Positions 9,550-59,623 of a stretch of 64,000 nucleotides of DNA are shown piece after piece. The notes below the pieces were generated by a model. The model worked only from the letters and a program-made list of their open reading frames with translations, searched no databases and was not told where the DNA came from. The translations under genes were made by a program, and so were the position numbers. This DNA is from Pseudanabaena sp. Chao 1811 (GTDB lineage: Bacteria > Cyanobacteriota > Cyanobacteriia > Pseudanabaenales > Pseudanabaenaceae), in contig NZ_CP101416.1 in NCBI RefSeq assembly GCF_027942295.1, positions 3,396,501-3,460,500 on the forward strand, in the 5' to 3' direction. Within the stretch, counting starts at the first letter, position 1. Every line of letters begins with the position of its first letter.

Positions 9550-9658
9550 AATTTATCAATAATCATGACTGTAGATGTGCTTTTTCTTTTTCATCTACTT
9601 TAGGCAGTTTATATCTCTTTTACTCTGCCTTTTTTTCCTTTTTTAGTCTAGACTCCAG
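9550..9658 (-). mobile_element. Remnant of a second copy of the neighbouring DDE-transposase IS (5' end only)
   Basis: This stretch resembles 10925-11019, the upstream end of the intact element. Both carry GGCAGTTT, a TGCCTTTCTTTTC-like run, TTTTTAGTCTA and CCAG in the same order. On the minus strand it still has an ATG followed by codons for Ile-Ile-Asp-Lys, comparable to MIFQKL of the intact copy, before the IS982 end begins. I read it as a transposon whose gene was hit by IS982 near codon 6 and whose remainder has been lost. This is inference from a short alignment. Confidence 0.5.
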
Positions 9659-11019
9659 TTTTTGAGGGGTGTTTTTTAACGGTCGGATAGCGAATACGAG
9701 GAGGAAGGCGATCACCCTTGGAGCGCTCAGGGGTGATCGCGTAGTTTAGGAGGGATTGCAGGAGTACCAATCGCGGCAATAATTACCGCAAAGGATTGAG
9801 CGACCCGACCAGGAGAAAGATTATCCTGAGGAGACTGCCAAGGTAAAGGAGAATCAACACAATCGAGGTGAGCGAACCAAAGTTGCCAAGTCATTAAAGG
9901 CATCAAAGCACTCCAACGCTCAGTCGCCTGAGTGGAGGTAATCTGGGGCAGAGTCCAATGTAGACGTTGCTTAGCAAAACGATACCAATGCTCTAGGGCA
10001 AAGCGACGCAAGTATTTTAAAAACAGGGTCTCCAAAGCAGGTCTCGTTTTACCCAACCAAGCCAACCACATGGGCTGAAACTTACGGTTGCGTCCCAAGG
10101 GTTCAATCACCTCAACTCTAAAAATCTGCATTGGTCGTTCTGGAGAAGTACGGAAATGAAAGTCACGCCAATGAGTTACCTGTACCCGACCGATTTGGGG
10201 GTCTGTAATTTCGATGGTGGTGTCGGCAACAGACCAAGTTTCTGGGGCATTCAGTTTGAATTTATGACCATGCTTACATGGTGCGCCACGACCACTATAG
10301 GCTGGCGGAACTCCCCAAACACAGTGATTAGATGCCAAACGCAGCAATAGATCTGCCTCAATATTCGCTGTTGCTTTGACAAAACTAGCATTCCCATATC
10401 CTCGGTCATAGACAGCTAGTGGGCGTACGCTTAACTGCTCTGTGACTTGTTTGAGTTGGAAGGCTGCTTTACTCACAGGAGTCTCGAAACTGCTGATCCG
10501 CTCATGTTTTATCGGTAGTGCCCAACTCCCACTTGCTTCGGGAATCCACGCAAAGGTGCTGTAGCTTTGTCCTACGTCGATACTTTCGTCTTTGCCATGA
10601 TGGAATCCTCTTTCCTTCAGTGTTTCTGCATCTGGTCGCAACCATACGCTATTATCTCCTGCTAACAAAGGTTGCTCTTCCGTGGGCAACTCTTGCACCA
10701 TCAGTTTCATCAACTTTGCTCTGACTGGTCGACTATCCCGCAGTCCCTCATAAATACTTGACCATTTTCGCCGAAATAATGGATTCATTGATAGACTCAC
10801 ATACGAGCTAATGCTCGGACTTGTCAGGACGGCATCCATTATTTCAAATACTGCATCTTTTCCTGTCCCAAGGTATTCATATATCGACTTGCGAAATTCT
10901 TGTAGTTTTTGGAAAATCATAGTAGTCAATGTCAATTTGGTTTATTGATCATTGCTCTTTTGGCAGTTTGTGCCTAGCACTTCCTGCCTTTCTTTTCTTC
11001 TTTTTAGTCTAAAGTCCAG
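9659..11019 (-). mobile_element. Insertion sequence carrying an intact DDE transposase
   Basis: The right end is well placed at about 11019, because the IS630 coding sequence breaks off exactly there. The left end is not clear; I saw no perfect terminal inverted repeat and place it between 9659 and 9726. An inverted repeat (GCGATCACCC / GGGTGATCGC, 9708-9740) spans the transposase stop codon. The right terminal ~57 bases are repeated directly at 9603-9658. Confidence 0.6.
9727..10935 (-). CDS. DDE superfamily transposase (IS4/IS701-like), intact
   Basis: A 402-residue protein with an RNase-H-fold DDE layout: LLAGDNSVWLRPDAETL (first Asp region), PLAVYDRGYGNASFV (second Asp) and LRRFALEHWYRFAKQRLHW (Glu). 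The family is frequent in cyanobacterial genomes as a putative transposase. There are no stops or shifts. The start could be the first ATG (MTLTTM) or the internal one five codons on. The upstream leader on the minus strand is pyrimidine-poor and shared with the 9603-9658 remnant. Confidence 0.8.
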   Translation of the reverse strand: MTLTTMIFQKLQEFRKSIYEYLGTGKDAVFEIMDAVLTSPSISSYVSLSMNPLFRRKWSSIYEGLRDSRPVRAKLMKLMVQELPTEEQPLLAGDNSVWLRPDAETLKERGFHHGKDESIDVGQSYSTFAWIPEASGSWALPIKHERISSFETPVSKAAFQLKQVTEQLSVRPLAVYDRGYGNASFVKATANIEADLLLRLASNHCVWGVPPAYSGRGAPCKHGHKFKLNAPETWSVADTTIEITDPQIGRVQVTHWRDFHFRTSPERPMQIFRVEVIEPLGRNRKFQPMWLAWLGKTRPALETLFLKYLRRFALEHWYRFAKQRLHWTLPQITSTQATERWSALMPLMTWQLWFAHLDCVDSPLPWQSPQDNLSPGRVAQSFAVIIAAIGTPAIPPKLRDHP

Positions 11020-11724
11020 GGAGTAAGTCACAAACACTTTGAGCATTGATGTAAGAATCATTAGTCACAGTAATCAACTCATGAGTAACAGCATTAAGTG
11101 CACCGAGGACATTAAAACGCTGCCTTCCAGCCCCAGATTTGACAAACAAGCGTTCAAAACACCACAAAAAGCCTAAATAAGCACCGAGGACAAAATGTGC
11201 CGCATCGACAAAGAAAACGGCTCTTTGTCCAGATTTAGTTTCCTCTAAGCGTGGTTCTAGTTTTTTTTGAGAAATTCCTCTTGTGCTGCTGGGTCAGCCT
11301 TAGCAGGTATTAGACCCACTCGGTGACAACTCATTCCCATCGATTTCAGGAAATGACGCACCTGTTCTCGACTTCGGACAATCCCTGTCAACTCGCTAAT
11401 TTTTGCTGCTGCATGAGCTAGTGTTTTGGGTGGATGTTCTCGAAAATATATCTCTATACTTTCTTGATGCTTTTTTAGTTCACTCTGGGGGCGATTAAAG
11501 GTTAGTTCTTTGAGTTTGCTTATCCCACCTTCTTTATAATCTCGTAAATAGCTCAACAGTGTCGGTTCACTGATTCTTAGCAGTTTTGTGATTTCTTTGT
11601 GTGGGTAGTTCTGACTTTTTAGGTATAGTGCTTCCATTTTTCTCTGTACTCGTGGATGCGGATGATGGAATCTTTCGTAATGTAGCGCATCTATTTCTTC
11701 TTTGGTAAATGTTAGTCGGATCAT
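11009..11724 (-). pseudogene. IS630-family transposase, two frames, truncated by the adjacent IS
   Basis: The first frame (155 aa, start at 11724) is the helix-turn-helix half: HKEITKLLRISEPTLLSYLR and LTGIVRSREQVRHFLKSMGM. It stops after an A8 run (11261-11268 region). A -1 shift on AAAAAAAAC continues into the DDE half: LEPRLEETKSGQRAVFFVDA with the first catalytic Asp, then ELITVTNDSYINAQSVCDLL. Such a -1 slip is a known way IS630-type elements make the full enzyme. The second half ends at the junction with the neighbouring IS, so the rest of the catalytic domain is missing. Confidence 0.8.
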
Positions 11725-11736
11725 CTTGGAACAAAG

Positions 11737-12638
11737 TTAACGTTTCTTCCATTCTTCCCCTTTTGAAAAATAAAGTCTACTCCCAGTCAAAGTATACAAA
11801 TATTTTTTGTGAATACCGCGAAAGGGACGCAGGAAATTGCGTAAACCAACCCAAATCCCCTCCATAGTATTGCAATGAACCTCACAAAAGCCATCTTGAT
11901 CGTCATCGCGAGCATACTCGCGCTGAGAGTGACAAACAGTTTGACGCTCACGACCAGAATCAGGTATGCGATTGTAAGCATCAGATTCATCGGTATAGAC
12001 TGTTGTATTTGGTAAAGTTGTTACCTCTACCTGCGGCTGAATCGTGATTTGTTGAGTATTGTCACAGACCTTCATGCGGATCTGACCACTGTTGCGTCCA
12101 ACCGTGCCGACAACAGGTGGACGGTCATTTGCCATTGTTCCTTTGCCTTTGCGTTGATTCCCTCGTCGTCTTGGTGGGTCTGCTATTGGATCTTTTTTTT
12201 GGCTCCCTTTTCTCCTGCATTCTGAAACATCTCGTCCATCTCGGTTTCAGCATCGGGCAGATTACCATTAATCAAATGGGCAAATCCTCATCGTTGGATG
12301 CGATGCCGCCAAGACAATAATGTCCCATAGTCGAGTCCTAGTTCCTCGGCTATGTGTTGGGTCGTTTGTCCTTGTAAGAATCCACGCAATATCAGCACGA
12401 TCTGACCACAGGTGTAATGACTTCCTGATAAGTCTGTTCCTGTAAAAATATGGAACACTTTCCCACATCCCCGACACTTATATTTGACGATTGGTTCGCG
12501 TTGGCGATCATGCGGTGCTTGTCCCACTGGTATTGCGTGTCCATTGGGACAATACAATCCTTTCGGATGTAGAATTTCTAATAACCATTCATAGCTGGCT
12601 TGCTCATCTAATAATTTTGTCAGGGGAAATTTGATCAT
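11737..12638 (-). pseudogene. IS1595-family transposase, disrupted
   Basis: Three pieces make one protein. From 12638 a 116-residue zinc-ribbon domain (YCPNGH and YKCRGCGKVF, four Cys) with a helix-turn-helix ends in an in-frame TGA at 12288. The same frame continues with LINGNLPDAETEMDEMFQNA, which carries the first acidic residue. An A8 run (12193-12200) is followed by a frame change into 11737-12135. That last part has VYTDESDAYNRI (second Asp) and HCNTMEGIWVGLRNFLR (final Glu). One nonsense codon plus one shift argue for a dead copy, although the A8 run alone could be a programmed slip site. Confidence 0.8.
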
Positions 12639-52728: not shown

Positions 52729-52737
52729 TAGAAATAA

Positions 52738-52970
52738 GGTAAGTAGCTAAACCTGTGGCGCACGCTCAGCGTGCGCCACAGGTTTTTTGGTTTTATAACC
52801 CAAGTTGCTACCTATTAAAAATCGGCTCAAAACAAGTTAAAAACAGCCTCGCTAAGTCCAAAATGACGCTATTTTTATATAAAAATCTAGCATTTTTTAT
52901 TTTAACTTTAGTCTTAAATGAATAGGTAGCAACTTGGGTTTTTATATTTAATTGCGCCCAGCTACTTAGC
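52738..52970. repeat. Palindromic GCTAAGTAG element interrupted by the MITE
   Basis: The left end GGTAAGTAGCTAA and right end CCCAGCTACTTAGC match the full copy at 36008. Inside is a perfect 16-bp hairpin (52750-52784, AACCTGTGGCGCACGC, loop TCA). The 144-bp MITE lies within the right half, duplicating TTTAT. Confidence 0.7.
52797..52940. mobile_element. IS982-related MITE, copy 2 (144 bp)
   Basis: Appears identical in all 144 bases to 44054-44197, with 20-bp perfect inverted ends. It is flanked by TTTAT on both sides. Both copies are in the same orientation and both lie beside the same palindromic element family. Confidence 0.9.
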
Positions 52971-53050
52971 TTCAAAAAAATAGTCAATTTGTTTGAGATC
53001 AAAAATTACCTGTAATCTATAGAAATCTACTTATTTGTATTGGCGAAAAT

Positions 53051-54967
53051 ATGTCTAGCTCTGAAACCATCCTTGCAGGAAGATATCAGATCATTAGCCC
53101 GCTAAGAAGTGGTGGTTTCGGGCAGACTTTCTTAGCAAAAGACAATCATCTATTTGGTTCTTCCTTATGCGTTGTTAAACAACTCAATCCTAAATTTGAT
53201 AACCCACAAGACTTAGAGATTGCTAAGCGCTTATTTGAACGCGAAGCAAAAACGCTGCATTATTTAGGTAGTCATGATCAGATTCCACGTCTGTTTGCCC
53301 ATTTTGAGCAAGATGGTGAGTTTTATTTAGTACAGGAATTGATTGAAGGGCAATCCCTTGAGAGCGAAATTGTTGCTGATAAAACATGGACTCAATCTGA
53401 AGTAATTGCATTCCTTGAAGATATTCTTCAAGTTCTAGCTTTCGTTCATAACTCTCAGGTGATTCACCGTGATATCAAACCTGCTAATTTAATGCGCCGT
53501 AGTAGCGATCGCAAAATTGTTCTGATTGATTTTGGTGCAGTTAAGTTATTAGGGACAGGAGCTACTGCAAGATCAAGCAACGAACAAACCTCAAGTCAAA
53601 CTGTAGTAGTTGGTTCTCCTGGCTATATGCCTAGTGAGCAACTTGCAGGTAATCCTCAACCTAGTAGCGATATCTATGCGATCGGGATGGTCTGTATCCA
53701 AATGCTGACGGGCATTAAAGATTGCCTCACAATTCCCAAAGACAACCGCAGCGAAATAAATTGGCAAAATCTTGTTGGATCTTCTATTAGTCCTCAACTT
53801 ATTACGATTTTGGATAAGATGGTTTGCTATGACTATCGTCAACGCTTTGAGAATGCCACGATTGCTTTAAATGCACTATCAAACTTGCTAGCAAATAGCA
53901 ACAGAACCACAGTAATGACTAATCTTGAGCGTCCTTATCCTTTAGAAGAGCCTGATGGACAAATTTCTTCAAATTCTCCCTTTTATATTGATCGTCCGCC
54001 CATAGAGCATGACTGCTTTGAAGCAATTGAGAAAACGGGAGCGCTTATCCGCATTAAAGCACCTCGACAGATGGGCAAATCTTCACTGATGGGCAAAATT
54101 TTGCACCATGCTTCCAGTCATGGATGTCAATCTGTTTCTCTCAACTTTCAAAGTGCTGATAGCTCTGTGTTTGCCGATCTAGATAAATTTTTACGATGGT
54201 TCTGCGCCAATGTAGGCAGACAACTCAAACTCAAAAGTAGAATTAGTGACTCTTGGGATGAGATTTTTGGCAGCAAAGATAATTGCACGGCATATTTTGA
54301 GGATTACATTTTCCCAGAGATTGGTGGAGCGATCGCTCTGTCACTGGATGAAGTGGATTTGATTTTTCAATATCGCGCGATCGCTGAAGATTTTTTCGGC
54401 TTACTGAGAGCATGGCATGAAGCCGCAAAAAGTGATGATTTATGGAAGCGCTTGCGGCTGATAGTTGTTCATTCTCAAGAAGTATACATTCCATTAAATA
54501 TCAATCAATCTCCGTTTAATGTAGGACTTCCAATCGAATTGCGAGAATTTTCGCGTGAACAAGTGACAGATCTTGTGGGGCGGCACAGACTAAAATGGAC
54601 AGATAGTGAGATAGAGCAACTTATGGCGATGGTGGGTGGTCATCCCTATTTAGTCCGTGTTGCTCTGTACTACATTGCGCGAAATAATATCAATCTTGTC
54701 GATGTGTTAAAAAATGCCCCTACTGAGGCAGGTATCTATAGCGATCATCTCCGTCGCCATTTATGGAATCTTGAACAAAATCCCAAACTGGCGGAAGCAA
54801 TGAAAAAAGTTGTCAGTAGTAAAGGACCTGTGCGATTGCCATCAGAAGAGACTTTTAAACTGGATAGCATGGGCTTAACATTGCGTCAGGGAAATGATGC
54901 GATCCCGCGTTGCAATCTTTATCAACTTTATTTTAGCGATCGCCTTGAGGTGGTTAGCAATCTATGA
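53051..54967 (+). CDS. Serine/threonine protein kinase fused to an AAA-like NTPase domain
   Basis: Residues ~10-280 are a Hanks-type kinase with a complete active site: [13 protein letters not shown] glycine loop, K43 in [15 protein letters not shown] at 139-147, DFG at 160-162 and SPGYMPSEQ activation-loop end. Residues ~295-630 are an AAA-like (AAA_35-type) domain with Walker [11 protein letters not shown] at 337-346 and [12 protein letters not shown] as Walker B. There is no membrane segment. The stop overlaps the next start by four bases (ATGA), so the two proteins are coupled. It is probably a cytoplasmic signalling complex. Confidence 0.92.
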
Positions 54968-57900
54968 CCAGTCTGAATTACAGCTATCAAGCAGGAGGCT
55001 GTCTTCCTGCCAACGCTCCTACTTATGTTCGGCGACAAGCTGACGAAGATTTGTATGAAGGCATTCAGGCAGGAGAGTTTTGTTATGTGTTGAATTCAAG
55101 ACAGATGGGTAAGTCTAGTTTGCGAGTGCAGACAATGAAACGTTTGCAAGCAGAAGGGTTTGCCTGCGTTGAGATTGATATGACTTCCATTGGTAGCCAA
55201 AATCTTACCGCCGATCAGTGGTATGCCAGCATCGTCCGCAATTTAGTAAGCGGCTTTAATTTGGGAGAGAAAGTTAATTTAAGAACTTGGTGGCGCGATC
55301 GCGATCTCATTACCTCGGTACAAAGGTTTAGTGAATTTATCGCAGAAGTTTTATTAGAGTACGTCCCGCAAAGAATTGTGATCTTTATCGATGAGATTGA
55401 TAGTGTACTGAGTCTTCCCTTTAATGCTGATGATTTTTTTGCATCGATTCGGGCATTCTATAACAGCCGTGCTAATCGTCCAGACTTTTATCGACTGACT
55501 TTTGTTTTACTTGGTGTTGCAACTCCTTCTGATCTACTTAAAAGTAAACATATCAGTACGCCTTTTAATATTGGTCGGGCGATCGAGTTAAAGGGATTTG
55601 AAATTGATGAAGCTCAATCTCTTGCAGAGGGTTTATCAAGCAAAGCTGCAAGCCCTCGTGCGGTAATACGGCAAATTCTTTACTGGACAAAAGGACAACC
55701 TTTTCTTACTCAAAAGGTCTGTAGGCTGATTATTGCTTCTGAGGATTATATTGAGTCAAATACAGAAGCAAAATATGTTAAAAATCTGGTTTGGGAATCA
55801 ATTATAGAAAATTGGGAAAGTCAAGATATTCCCGAACATTTACGGACGATTCGCGATCGCTTGTTGTGGCGTAGCGATCGGACAAGCCAGCTTTTGGGGC
55901 TTTATCGTAGTGTTTTGATGAAACAGGTAGTCATATTTGATGGCAATAGCCAAGATCAAATGGAATTGCGGCTATCTGGTTTAGTGATTAACTATCAAAA
56001 TCGATTAATCTCTCATAATATTATTTATCAAAAGATATTCAACATTGCTTGGATAGATAGTATAGTGACAAATCTTTGTCCCTATACTGAAAAAATGTCT
56101 GCTTGGTTTGCTTCTAATAAACTTGATGACTCATTTTTACTTTATGAGGAAGAATTACAATTAGCTCTAGAGTGGGCAAGGGATAAATCTTTAAATGTCA
56201 ATGATTTTCAGTTTCTTACCGCTAGCCAAAACCACGATAAAATATCACTTCGTCAGGAATTGGAGATTGCTAGAGAGCAATTTAAAAGATTTGAGCAAAA
56301 ACATAATATCCAGAAAAAAGCAACACAGTCAGAAATTCAAACTTTAGATGCGGTGGCAAATAGGGCAGAAGTGGCAAATAGAGCATTAGACATGTTTGAA
56401 TCTCAAGAGCTAGAATCTTTAGTTTTAGCAATGCAAGTAGTGCAAGATCTTAAACTACTAATTGATAAACAAACCTATCCTGAGAATTATCCTACATTTA
56501 CTCCTAAGTATGTCTTACAAACTATTTTAAGTAATATTCACGAGCGAAATTGTTTGATAGCTCATCGACAGGGGGTTAATGTTGTAAGATTCAGCCCAGA
56601 TGGCAAGATGATTGCAACAGGTGGTGGTGATGGAACTATAGCTCTATGGGAGCTATCGGGGCAAAATATTATTAAATGGAATTGTAATAAAACTCAAGTT
56701 AATGACTTATGTTTTAGTCCAGATGGTAAAACGATCGCTTCATCTGGTTTTATGACTGGAGATGTTCATTTATGGGATCTACAGAGCAATAAAATTGCTG
56801 TTTTTAGTGGTCATCAAGGATCGGTTTGGAACGTGGCATTTAACGCAGATGGTCAACAAATTGCCACAATGGGTGAAGATTCCACAGTCAGATTTTGGAG
56901 TATATCTGGTCAGCAAATAGAACAGAAGAATACTAATCATGGCGTAGGTAGAGGTATTAGCTTTAGTCCAGATGGAAGATATATCGCCTCTGTAAGAGAA
57001 AAGGGGGTAGTTTATCTTAAAAGCTTAATTCAGGGAAGAAAATTTGATCGATGGGTAACTCATCAAGACTGGGTTAAAAATGTAATTTTTAGCCCTGACA
57101 GTCAAAAATTTTTAACTATCAATCAGGATCTCAAGTTAAGAGTTTGGGACTTAGATGGTAAAGAATTAGCAAGATTTAAATGCTATCCCCACATGATAAC
57201 AAGTGCTTGTTTCAGCCTAGACAGTCAGAAAGTTATTACTGGTGACACATCGGGAGCAATCATAATTTGGGAGATTTCAGGGAAAAACACGATTCATTTA
57301 AACGGACATGAAAAATCGGTTAGGAGTTTATCTTTTAGCCCTAAAGGGGATTTACTTATCTCTGGAGGTTCAGATAGTACACTTCGCTTTTGGGATTTAT
57401 CAGAAAAGGGTTTAGTTCACGAGATTGAAGATCTTGAAAAGCTTTTGTCTGATAAAGATAAGCAAGAGAACTTTGTTGGTCTAAGTTTAAATCTCTTGCT
57501 TATAAAAGGTTATCAGTGGTTAGAAGATTATCTTGTAATTCATCCCGAAAAATTAGAAAAACTGGATATAAACAAAAACTTAATTACTAGAAGTGATTCC
57601 AGTAATGACAAGTTGATGAGTCAAGTTGAGCAAGCAGTTACTTATTATGACAAGACCGTAGAAACTGAATTAGACGATACAGGTAAAGAAGAGAATATGA
57701 ATCTAACTTTACTTGATTTGCCTCCATTAATTGAGCGCGATCTCAGGAATAATGACTATAAACGATTAAGAGAGCTGCTATCAGCTAAGAGATGGGAAGC
57801 AGCAAATAGAGAAACCAACTTTCTCATATTAAAATTAGCTAATCGCTCAAAAGGAGGGTTTCTTAGAGAAGAAGACATCAAAAACATTTCTCCAATAGAG

Positions 57901-59151
57901 ATTTGTACTATTGATAGACTATGGCTAATTTATAGTAATGGACATTTTGGTTTCAGTGTCCAGATGAGGATTTGGAATAGTAGTATCAAAGATGGGAACT
58001 ATAAAAACTATGAATTTGCTGATCAAGTTGGATGGCGTATTCATTATTCATGGTCTCTGGGGAACCATATGAACTATTCCTTAAGCGCCCCTAGAGGACA
58101 TCTACCAATTTTAGGGCTGCATAGATTAGGCTCGGAAGAATTTTTGTTTTTTCTGCAAAGTTTTTTTGCTTATTTTGAAGATAGTCTTCAGCTATATAAA
58201 CATAATGCTTTGATTGTTTCAAATCAGGTATTACAACCATTCGCTAATGTTAGTGAGAGTGTAAATTTAGAGTTGCCTGATTTGTCTACACAATCTGATA
58301 ATAAACTTATCTCCTTTGTGGTTAATACTAATAGTTCTGAAGATATAGTTTTGTTTCTCCCTAATGATGTCAAGCTAGAATTAGTTAATATTCCCGATGG
58401 CAACTTCATGATGGGAAGTGACGAAAATATAAATGAAAGCCCAATGCATAAAGTTAATATCAAAGGATTTAAAATGGGGAAATATCCGATTACTCAGAAA
58501 CAATATCAGGCAGTAATGGGGAAAAATCCGTCGTATTTCCGAAATAATGATAACTTGCCAGTGGAATCTGTATCATGGGATGATGCAACTGCTTTCTGTA
58601 AGAAACTCTCATTAATGACTGGACAAAAAATACAACTTCCCAGTGAATCACAATGGGAATATGCTTGTCGTGCAGGTAGTTCTACCAAATATTATTTTGG
58701 TGATGATGTTAATAATTTAGAAGATTATGCATGGTTTGCAAATAACAGTGGAGATACATCAATTGATGATTTAGAGCTTTGGGAAAATGATCAGAAAAAG
58801 TCTTGGGAATTGCTCAACACCTATAACTGTAGAACTCATATGGTCGGAGAAAAGTTACCCAATGCTTGGGGACTATATGATATGGGTGGCAACGTCTATG
58901 AATGGTGTGAAGATATTTGGCATGATAATTATATAGGCTCACCAAATGACGGAAGTGCTTGGCTAATGAATGGTGAAGCATTTATGCGCTCGATTAGAGG
59001 GGCAGCTTGGTATAGTCTCAATCGATATTTTTATTCAGCATTCCGCAACAAATTTGATGAACATGGACGATTTTATGGAATCGGTTTCCGAATTGTAGTT
59101 TTAGATTTTGGGGAGGTACTTCGTGGTCACTGGACAGTTAAAGAGGGATAA
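54964..59151 (+). CDS. AAA-like / WD40 / GUN4 / FGE-sulfatase domain fusion, 1395 aa
   Basis: Four modules in order. (1) AAA-like domain ~5-370: Walker [11 protein letters not shown] (44-53), Walker [10 protein letters not shown] (138-146). (2) After a helical linker, six or seven WD40 blades at ~535-815, each with FSPDGK and LWDL-type ends. (3) A GUN4 domain at ~915-1070 ([40 protein letters not shown]), which in other proteins binds porphyrins. (4) A formylglycine-generating-enzyme-like domain at ~1138-1380 ([44 protein letters not shown]). The active Cys pair of true FGE is not visible after RGAAWY, so this module is probably a binding domain. A tetrapyrrole-sensing STAND-like device is my inference. 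Confidence 0.9.
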
Positions 59152-59428
59152 ATACTGAAACGCCCATTTCATGACGATGAAAAAGACGCAAATACGTCGA
59201 TCACACTTTAGCTTTCCAGTGCCGCTTAGCAAAAACACCCTAGAGTGAAATTAGAAATGCTGAGTGCGATCGCAATAAAAACGAAAAAGATGTGGCGCAA
59301 AGCACCGCATCTTTTTCGTTTTATCCCCTTGACTCTCCAGTCGAATAGAGAATGTAGAGTTGTTTTTGGATAGAGAAGTCGGTGTTTAATTTCTCTTTTT
59401 AGTCCAAAAATAGAAGTTATCTAAAACT
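59152..59428. other. Gap before the chaperone gene
   Basis: It holds a hairpin (59274-59324, arms ATAAAACGAAAAAGATG-like, loop AAA) that can terminate the signalling pair, then the MerR-type promoter at 59329. Nothing else was recognised. Confidence 0.6.
59329..59360 (+). promoter_or_regulatory. MerR-type promoter of the chaperone-lipoprotein-merR genes
   Basis: -35 TTGACT (59329-59334), 20-bp spacer, -10 TAGAGT (59355-59360). The spacer reads CTCCAG...GAGAATG and matches the copA promoter in the -35, the CTCTCC half-site and the GAGAATG half-site. It is a likely binding site of the MerR protein encoded at 60703. Confidence 0.8.
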
Positions 59429-59623
59429 ATGACTATTCAACTCACAGCCCCTAAAATTGCCTGTTCTAGCTGTGTCAATACAGTTACAGCCGCAATTAAA
59501 AACGTTGATGCTAACGCAGAAATTCAAGCTAATACCAAAACAAAACTGATTGTTGTTGAAACTCAAGCATCGGAGTTAGCAATTCGAGAAGCTCTTATCA
59601 ATGCTGGCTATCCAGTCGCCTAA
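59429..59623 (+). CDS. Atx1/CopZ-like copper chaperone
   Basis: A 64-residue heavy-metal-associated domain with the ferredoxin-like beta-alpha-beta fold. The metal motif is ACSSCVNTV (C-x2-C). It would deliver Cu(I) to CopA. The family's usual Met before the motif is replaced (KIACSSC). It is the first gene behind the second MerR-type promoter. Confidence 0.88.
   Translation: MTIQLTAPKIACSSCVNTVTAAIKNVDANAEIQANTKTKLIVVETQASELAIREALINAGYPVA

Follow-up and report, generated by a model that had tools for sequence, protein, structure and literature searches.

What is the function of two overlapping genes that place a protein kinase on one protein and a WD40-GUN4-FGE (formylglycine-generating enzyme)-like array on another, each fused to an ATPase of the same family? 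This question is raised by a gene pair at positions 53051 to 59151 of a 64,000-nucleotide stretch of the Pseudanabaena sp. Chao 1811 genome (contig NZ_CP101416.1, positions 3,396,501 to 3,460,500; hereafter, the window). Both proteins carry the Pfam domain AAA_35, in two types designated A (as in the first open reading frame, ORF1) and B (as in the second, ORF2). Relatives of the two genes are recurrent neighbours that diverged together, and their other modules are swapped around a constant pair of ATPases that have intact P-loop and GxP motifs and, in structural models, a fold of the STAND (signal transduction ATPases with numerous domains)/Orc clade. We predict that the pair is a split sensor/effector receptor of the STAND type, similar to the nucleotide-binding leucine-rich repeat receptors (NLRs). 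This reading is considered fairly likely, and the role of the receptor is probably defensive.

Organization and recurrence of the AAA_35 gene pair

ORF1 (53051..54967, plus strand) encodes 638 amino acids. It begins with a Hanks-type protein kinase domain (residues 13-267, 53087..53851; 121.8 bits) containing the HRD and DFG motifs, and continues with an A-type AAA_35 ATPase (PF14516; residues 301-629, 53951..54937; 489.5 bits). The latter has the Walker A motif RQMGKSSL (approximately 54065-54088), a GGHP (GxP) motif and a C-terminal winged-helix-like part. ORF2 (54964..59151, plus strand) encodes 1395 amino acids and starts with a B-type AAA_35 domain (residues 12-359, 54997..56040; 111.7 bits), which is much more divergent than the ORF1 copy and has its Walker A motif at approximately 55099-55122. 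This domain is followed by a helical linker (56101..56553) in which the family motif L-L-x-G-x-x-L...W is partly altered (LLYEEEL), a WD40 propeller region (residues 534-815, approximate limits, 56563..57408; 147.1 bits), a GUN4 domain without the Asn of the LxNxLR motif (residues 928-1052, 57745..58119; 114.1 bits), and an FGE-sulfatase/C-type-lectin-like domain (residues 1139-1378, 58378..59097; 156.8 bits). All of these domains lie on the plus strand, and all Pfam matches of the two proteins exceeded the gathering cut-off, which is 29.2 bits for GUN4. Both reading frames are open. A preliminary description, made from the letters of the DNA, had proposed an ATGA overlap of the two genes, the kinase-AAA and AAA-WD40-GUN4-FGE module orders and an RQMGKSSL sequence common to both AAA domains. 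The overlap was found at 54964..54967 and is consistent with translational coupling, the Pfam search returned the same module orders, and RQMGKSSL proved to be the Walker A motif of each domain. The limits proposed for GUN4 (residues 915-1070) enclose the Pfam match.

A profile search of the pair's own genome, in which all 20 candidates were scored, gave six AAA_35 matches, three of the A type (ORF1-like, 365-492 bits) and three of the B type (ORF2-like, 94-116 bits), arranged as three A-B pairs. The second pair consists of a kinase-A gene and a B-WD40 gene. It seems, from sequence matches, to be a genus-conserved pair, because B homologues of 1152-1164 amino acids, 42-43% identical to ORF2, recur in many genomes of the genus. 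The third pair consists of a CHAT-like-A gene (CHAT assigned by eye and by a local profile), a gene of 134 amino acids and a B-WD40 gene. The WD40 repeats of the B protein of this third pair (L016:6215-10060, minus strand; G000:C1:858214-862059) are near-identical to each other by eye. Near-identical WD40 repeats also occur in fungal allorecognition NLRs, and those of the third pair suggest recent repeat shuffling.

The pairing was then counted in 18 complete or near-complete genomes, including the pair's own. Among 49 A matches, 27 had a same-strand B match within 5 kb downstream, compared with approximately 0.10 expected by chance, and five had a B match on the other strand. In the opposite direction, 30 of 50 B matches had an A match within 5 kb upstream, and six more within 15 kb. 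These counts come from a survey of the phylum in which up to 16 candidates per genome were scored; the 49 A matches are those listed (fragments included, the weakest at 166 bits), and ten of 60 AAA_35 rows were left out (eight further pieces of split matches and two weak matches). The preliminary description would have been contradicted if homologues of the two genes never co-occurred. They do co-occur, and the pair is a recurrent unit (three of three in its own genome, 27 of 49 in the 18 genomes). A second set consisted of 80 named loci from a contig scan, taken from at least 534 relatives and fetched through their A matches. In this set, the downstream DNA was long enough to judge 72 A genes, of which 57 had a same-strand B gene within 3 kb; seven more A genes had no room for one. 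When all fetched loci were combined, including 20 chosen by B matches, 80 of 96 A genes were paired with a B gene, and 30 of the 80 pairs were separated by 20 bp or less. One A gene was followed by four B genes in a row in G002 and by three in G057. Locus L030 (same genome as L069) and loci L062, L063 and L065 (taken as near-identical to L061) were left out of the pairing counts of the fetched loci, of the local-profile scan of B proteins and of the co-divergence counts.

AAA_35 was found in 44 of 53 genomes of the window's class (own genome included; one had only a weak match). Outside the class, the 116-genome sample of the phylum gave two weak matches; both figures refer to the matches listed. 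There was no match in 14 control genomes. Judged from these profile matches, AAA_35 hardly occurs outside the window's class within the sampled phylum. Other arrangements of the same parts were also observed. At G082:C3:2733224-2735434, a B-type match is succeeded by an A-like AAA_35 match, and the open frame given for each is 1288 amino acids long, a possible one-chain fusion of the A-B pair. Proteins of approximately 1860-1880 amino acids with a kinase-like start (by eye) and a B-type AAA_35 end (L073:11031-16673, L093:11717-17347 and L126:3648-9218) lie near an A gene, on the opposite strand in two of the three cases.

The distance matrices of the A and B domains were strongly correlated (Mantel r 0.895 for 73 pairs, reached in 0 of 2000 permutations), a value that includes shared species history. 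The within-family correlation was 0.96 for 23 pairs, and in 48 of 73 pairs the three nearest B neighbours included the nearest A neighbour. Turnover of the outer modules was compared in 59 of the 73 pairs, pairs cut by contig ends being left out. At A-domain distances below 0.1, 49 of 55 comparisons had a homologous effector and 25 of 55 a homologous B C-terminus. The order was reversed at larger distances, e.g., 60 (effector) versus 187 (B C-terminus) of 473 at 0.3-0.4, a reversal attributed to the WD40 repeats that many B proteins share. Among close relatives, the combination of a stable effector and a fast-changing sensing end is a pattern that immune receptors exhibit.

Exchangeable modules around a common ATPase core

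Because a search of the A-type AAA_35 sequence against the sequences of solved structures gave only RecA pieces, folds were compared. In Pfam searches of seven domains, one gave sub-threshold matches to NACHT (0.023) and ATPase_2 (0.012), and no NB-ARC match was listed. AlphaFold2 models were obtained for the A domain and for B residues 1-450 (mean predicted local distance difference test scores of 90.6 and 90.2, respectively). Two archaeal ATPases, 2qen and 2fna, had the closest folds (Z 20.8 and 20.3 for the A model, 20.6 and 20.1 for the B model). Z scores for the A and B models, respectively, were 18.2 and 16.6 with RPP1, 18.0 and 15.5 with CED-4, 17.2 and 16.5 with NRC4, 15.2 and 15.4 with APAF-1, and 14.4 and 13.7 with a chain of the NAIP5-NLRC4 inflammasome. 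RPP1, CED-4, APAF-1 and the NAIP5-NLRC4 chain align within model residues 7-372, nearly the whole domain, and Avs3 and Avs4 were among the Foldseek matches. According to the models, both AAA_35 types share the STAND/Orc ATPase fold. The Walker A lysine was invariant in 87 of 87 A domains and 70 of 70 B domains. The Gly and Pro of the GxP motif, which after the ATPase core is a feature of STAND NTPases, were likewise invariant in all 87 A and all 70 B domains.

The N-termini of 100 of 101 A proteins (L069 left out) were searched with Pfam and matched CHAT in 38 cases, TIR_2 in 33, kinase in 20, the Sigma70_r4_2 helix-turn-helix (HTH) in seven, Trypsin_2 in five, Guanylate_cyc in five and caspase in one; some carried two effector domains. 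All 20 kinase-type A proteins have the HRD and DFG motifs, and 17 of them have a VAIK-like lysine; ORF1 has all three. Among the C-termini of 84 of 88 B proteins (L061, L062, L063 and L069 left out), 52 contained WD40 repeats. Further B modules were TPR, GUN4, GAF, CHASE2, peptidoglycan-binding and macro domains, which were recognized in single Pfam checks or with local profiles, and FHA, recognized by eye. A strong hydrophobic segment was present in the linker of 56 of 83 B proteins and is absent from ORF2. GUN4 was detected with local profiles in five of 93 B proteins or fragments. ORF2 was the only one of the 93 in which GUN4 and FGE-like domains occur together, so that the four-module order, which the preliminary description had called unusual, is indeed unusual. 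Against the defence-system models of PADLOC, 37 models matched ORF1, and the 25 listed fall in or around its kinase part (residues 1-299). Most of these were PD-T4-6 models (best 2.9e-95), the others including MAD6, MkoA and C3a189, and the ORF2 GUN4 domain matched one PD-T4-6 model. As far as sequence goes, the PD-T4-6 matches look like generic kinase and GUN4 similarity.

Two same-genus versions, 84-88% identical to ORF1 in the A domain, illustrate the exchange. L029 combines a kinase with WD40-TPR-GUN4-Macro and has transposase-like ORFs on both sides, and L069 of Pseudanabaena frigida combines a cyclase with TPR-GUN4-Macro; the macro domain of L029 was identified by similarity to that of L069. 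Among the same-genus versions, kinase and cyclase, WD40 and TPR, and FGE and macro modules are swapped, and GUN4 and the ATPase pair are constant. A second, broken copy of a window-like pair was observed in G147 (L031:6179-7290 and 9631-11972); here the cyclase-like ORF stands separately, and there are transposase-like ORFs in the vicinity.

The ORF2 GUN4 domain was confirmed as such by alignment with the sequences of solved Gun4 structures (1z3x, 1e-16; 1y6i, 3e-15), in addition to Pfam; GUN4 domains match at eight places in the genome. This sequence match speaks against a GUN4 region that lacks the fold, the other observation that would have contradicted the preliminary description. At the LxNxLR site, ORF2 has ILGLHR, in which the equivalents of Asn211 and Leu213 are Gly and His and that of Arg214 is kept. 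The Synechocystis Gun4 counterpart is LLNQLR (the alignment itself ends at LLNQ). The Trp192 equivalent is Gly, by a hand count on the structure-sequence alignment. According to PMC10156173, LxNxLR is the bilin motif of true GUN4 orthologues, paralogues lack the Asn, and the Asn-to-Gly change in Chlamydomonas GUN4 abolishes bilin but not porphyrin binding. Altered porphyrin binding of W192A is cited in PMC8967248. The best solved match of the FGE-like domain was PvdO (4e-25), followed by a Treponema variable protein (7.5e-23), a target of a diversity-generating retroelement. In FGE, the cysteine pair lies in the last conserved stretch; there is no cysteine in this stretch of the ORF2 domain (RSIRGAAW to GFRIV). 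Since these motif residues are missing, a textbook ligand or activity can be assigned to neither the GUN4 nor the FGE-like module. The FGE-like end resembles variable-protein ends by eye. A diversity-generating retroelement was rejected for the pair's own genome only, which gave no RVT_1 match and, apart from chance-level short matches (E 0.2 or worse), no further copy of the end of the ORF2 gene.

Extra genes between A and B were associated with particular effectors. A family of genes encoding approximately 208 amino acids was present in 18 of 34 CHAT-type pairs versus three of 46 other pairs or, when counted by groups of near-identical A domains, in six of 17 CHAT groups versus two of 36 others. 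Of its 23 members, 22 have an I/V-E-A-K motif, and both members sent to Pfam matched the restriction endonuclease domain HSDR_N. Examples from smaller groups of between-genes matched HNH, Uma2 and XisH. Kinase-type pairs mostly have no extra gene (gap of 250 bp or less in 13 of 16). The nuclease-like genes in CHAT-type pairs speak for a destructive output, and defence is therefore favoured for the CHAT type.

Genomic location of the pair

The genes adjoining the pair are copper genes, namely CopM, CopA, CueR-like and cupredoxin-like genes, the last assigned by eye. A pigment-gene neighbourhood, which would have favoured the tetrapyrrole signalling raised in the preliminary description, was not found. 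A stretch at 52733..59283, in which the two genes are the only long ORFs, is absent from the same place in L144, L145, L147, L148 and L149. In these five relatives, homology to the window ends at 52730-52735 and picks up again at 59284. The CopA, cupredoxin-like and downstream genes stand together without the pair in L145, L147, L148 and L152, and in L149 they are succeeded by the beginning of the downstream gene. L146 and L150 have no right flank within the available stretch, and in L151 (P. frigida) a MerR-like gene follows instead. In G147 and P. frigida, the pair's relatives occupy other genomic positions. Going by these alignments, the pair is most simply explained as a 6.55-kb insertion into the copper locus of the window's genome. 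The copper neighbourhood is coincidental, since five relatives have an empty site, and a conserved link between the pair and copper was rejected for the same reason.

Close to its left end, the insertion contains an element (52797..52940) that resembles a miniature inverted-repeat transposable element (MITE), with 20-bp terminal inverted repeats. The end of this element matched the genome 42 times with up to two mismatches, mostly as pairs of approximately 144 bp end to end, and a reversed control gave no match. A-type matches were found on 37 plasmid records and, like the insertion, point to mobility. Phage carriage was also considered and was rejected after a search of a phage collection. 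In the copper flank, a short frame at approximately 59413-59610 appears by eye to encode a heavy-metal-associated (CopZ-like) chaperone and is also present in relatives.

Predicted function and comparison with known systems

The preliminary description had suggested a sensor of an invader-derived ligand, and the order of enzyme, STAND-like ATPase and repeat/ligand modules supports such a conflict-receptor design. In the receptor that we predict, the B protein would be the sensing end, its STAND-like ATPase being followed by the WD40, GUN4 and FGE-like modules, and the A protein would be the effector end, with the kinase in front of the sister ATPase. Binding of a ligand by B would switch its nucleotide state, and the switched B protein would nucleate a mixed A-B oligomer. 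Crowding of the kinases in this oligomer may lead to their activation by trans-phosphorylation, and the active kinases could phosphorylate host targets to bring about growth stop or cell death. The trigger, a less certain point, may be a product of non-kin cells or of an invader (a phage or another kind of mobile DNA) rather than an ordinary metabolite. This putative two-protein receptor is a recurrent design of cyanobacteria, of which the window's example is unusual in uniting GUN4 and FGE-like domains.

Several observations weigh against this prediction. The nearest folds are archaeal ATPases and not NLRs, and Orc ATPases score level with several NLRs (1w5t, Z 18.0 for A and 17.3 for B), so that the fold alone is evidence for the STAND/Orc clade but not for immunity. 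Of the 87 A domains, 20 (of the CHAT, kinase and HTH/other types) have another residue in place of the Walker B Glu, which all 70 B domains retain. In the 18 genomes, 17 of 49 A matches had no B match on either strand within 5 kb. A B partner is also missing from each of the five A genes found that encode cyclase plus TIR ahead of AAA_35 (L060, L064, L083, L084 183-2306 and L091); these cyclase-TIR proteins are possibly a self-contained form. Some B C-termini carry enzymes (CHAT, trypsin) or a second NTPase (NACHT), and the placement of effectors on A and sensors on B is therefore only a tendency. Among the between-genes, some do not resemble nucleases; one member of a three-member group matched a TPS secretion domain, and another between-gene matched no family. 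The Mantel test carries shared species history, the turnover comparisons are mutually non-independent, and none of 50,697 phage records contained an A-type match.

Other explanations were weighed against the same evidence. The adjacency of two unrelated genes by chance might be suspected because a minority of A and B genes occur alone, but the ATGA overlap, the pairing in all three cases in the genome, the excess over chance in the 18 genomes and the co-divergence make this explanation negligible, and the pairing survey refutes it. A regulator of copper or metal stress would fit the location among the CopM, CopA, cupredoxin-like and CueR-like genes; given the empty site in five relatives, copper genes that stand together without the pair, and relatives of the pair located elsewhere in G147 and P. 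frigida, it is very unlikely. Signalling of tetrapyrrole status, in which GUN4 would bind a porphyrin or bilin, set the kinase activity and tie phosphorylation to the photosynthetic state, deserves more weight. GUN4 is kept in three intact same-genus versions of the pair while other modules change, it matches Gun4 structures in sequence, and such a role was proposed for GUN4 fusions in PMC7159879. On the other hand, GUN4 occurs in only five of the 93 B proteins or fragments and thus cannot be the general input. Moreover, the equivalents of Asn211, Leu213 and Trp192 are changed to Gly, His and Gly (residues discussed in PMC10156173 and PMC8967248), with that of Arg214 kept, and the pair is an insertion among copper genes. 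Tetrapyrrole signalling is considered improbable on balance.

A receptor with the same STAND mechanism could also serve non-defence signalling or self/non-self (kin) recognition in cyanobacteria. Its wide presence in 44 of the 53 class genomes (among the matches listed) agrees with such a role, cyclase, kinase and HTH N-termini could give regulatory, non-lethal outputs, and kin recognition was raised for related sensors in PMC10907252. However, CHAT, TIR and trypsin effectors and the added nuclease-like genes point to destructive outputs, and the sensing end changes fast. This role is rather unlikely, and we prefer the defensive split receptor. A wider proposal is put forward tentatively. AAA_35 pairs may constitute an undescribed class of bacterial immune receptors, a two-protein NLR in which a B sensor and an A effector co-assemble, the sensing end being swapped quickly and the killing end slowly, as in plant sensor/helper NLRs. 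The CHAT type would add a nuclease effector, possibly as a protease substrate.

If this is true, the division of NLR sensing and killing over two sister ATPases, known from plants (sensor/helper) and mammals (NAIP/NLRC4), also exists in bacteria. Cyanobacteria would then possess an extensive natural collection of matched pairs in which sensors and effectors have been exchanged. The GUN4, WD40, macro and lectin-like modules would have a common role as exchangeable inputs, and the activation of one ATPase by its sensor partner would become directly testable. The Pfam 'AAA-like domain' AAA_35, for which almost no literature was found, would become a testable system. No paper on the AAA_35 pair was found in the literature searched; AAA_35 is mentioned as a rare accessory domain of sigma factors in PMC11119718.

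The STAND NTPases of bacterial immunity (Avs, bNACHT) and the eukaryotic NLRs and AP-ATPases resemble the AAA_35 pair in their effector - ATPase - repeat/ligand logic and in a fold match that runs from the ATPase to the winged helix across the whole domain. In contrast to them, the pair has effector and sensor on two proteins, each with its own AAA_35 ATPase, is nearest to archaeal ATPase folds, and is known here from sequence and models. In plant sensor/helper NLRs and in NAIP-NLRC4, sensor and effector receptors are separate sister ATPases. The split of roles predicted for the AAA_35 pair is alike, as are the several B genes behind one A gene in G002 and G057, although this likeness is an analogy only. 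The hallmark genes of VMAP/iSTAND systems (MoxR ATPase, vWA) were not found beside the pair, the insertion holding two long ORFs and the named flanking genes being copper genes. Npun2340/2341 are two genes with consecutive numbers, presumably from Nostoc punctiforme. They give their name to a STAND family of the MNS clade (Leipe 2004, as cited in PMC8195603), and this family may be the same AAA_35 pair, a possibility that is the main risk to novelty.

DUF323 is an older name of FGE-sulfatase. Single-chain kinase-GUN4, kinase-WD40 and kinase-DUF323 proteins of cyanobacteria are described in PMC2176072; they use the same modules, but the pair splits kinase and sensing over two AAA_35 proteins. 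Judged by PMC8195603, the nSTAND2 two-gene operon is the closest published idea. It is mobile and has a STAND ATPase core in both proteins, one of which has variable effectors; one of the ATPases has eroded, with loss of its NTP-binding motifs, and is mostly joined to GT4 or HEPN. Set side by side by description, nSTAND2 and the AAA_35 pair share the two-gene design, the constant STAND ATPase core and the variable effectors. GT4 and HEPN are not among the 22 families matched by the 100 A N-termini, where the effectors are CHAT, TIR, kinase and others. In contrast to nSTAND2 as described there, the P-loop lysine is intact in both types of the AAA_35 pair, and its second protein carries a variable sensing end.

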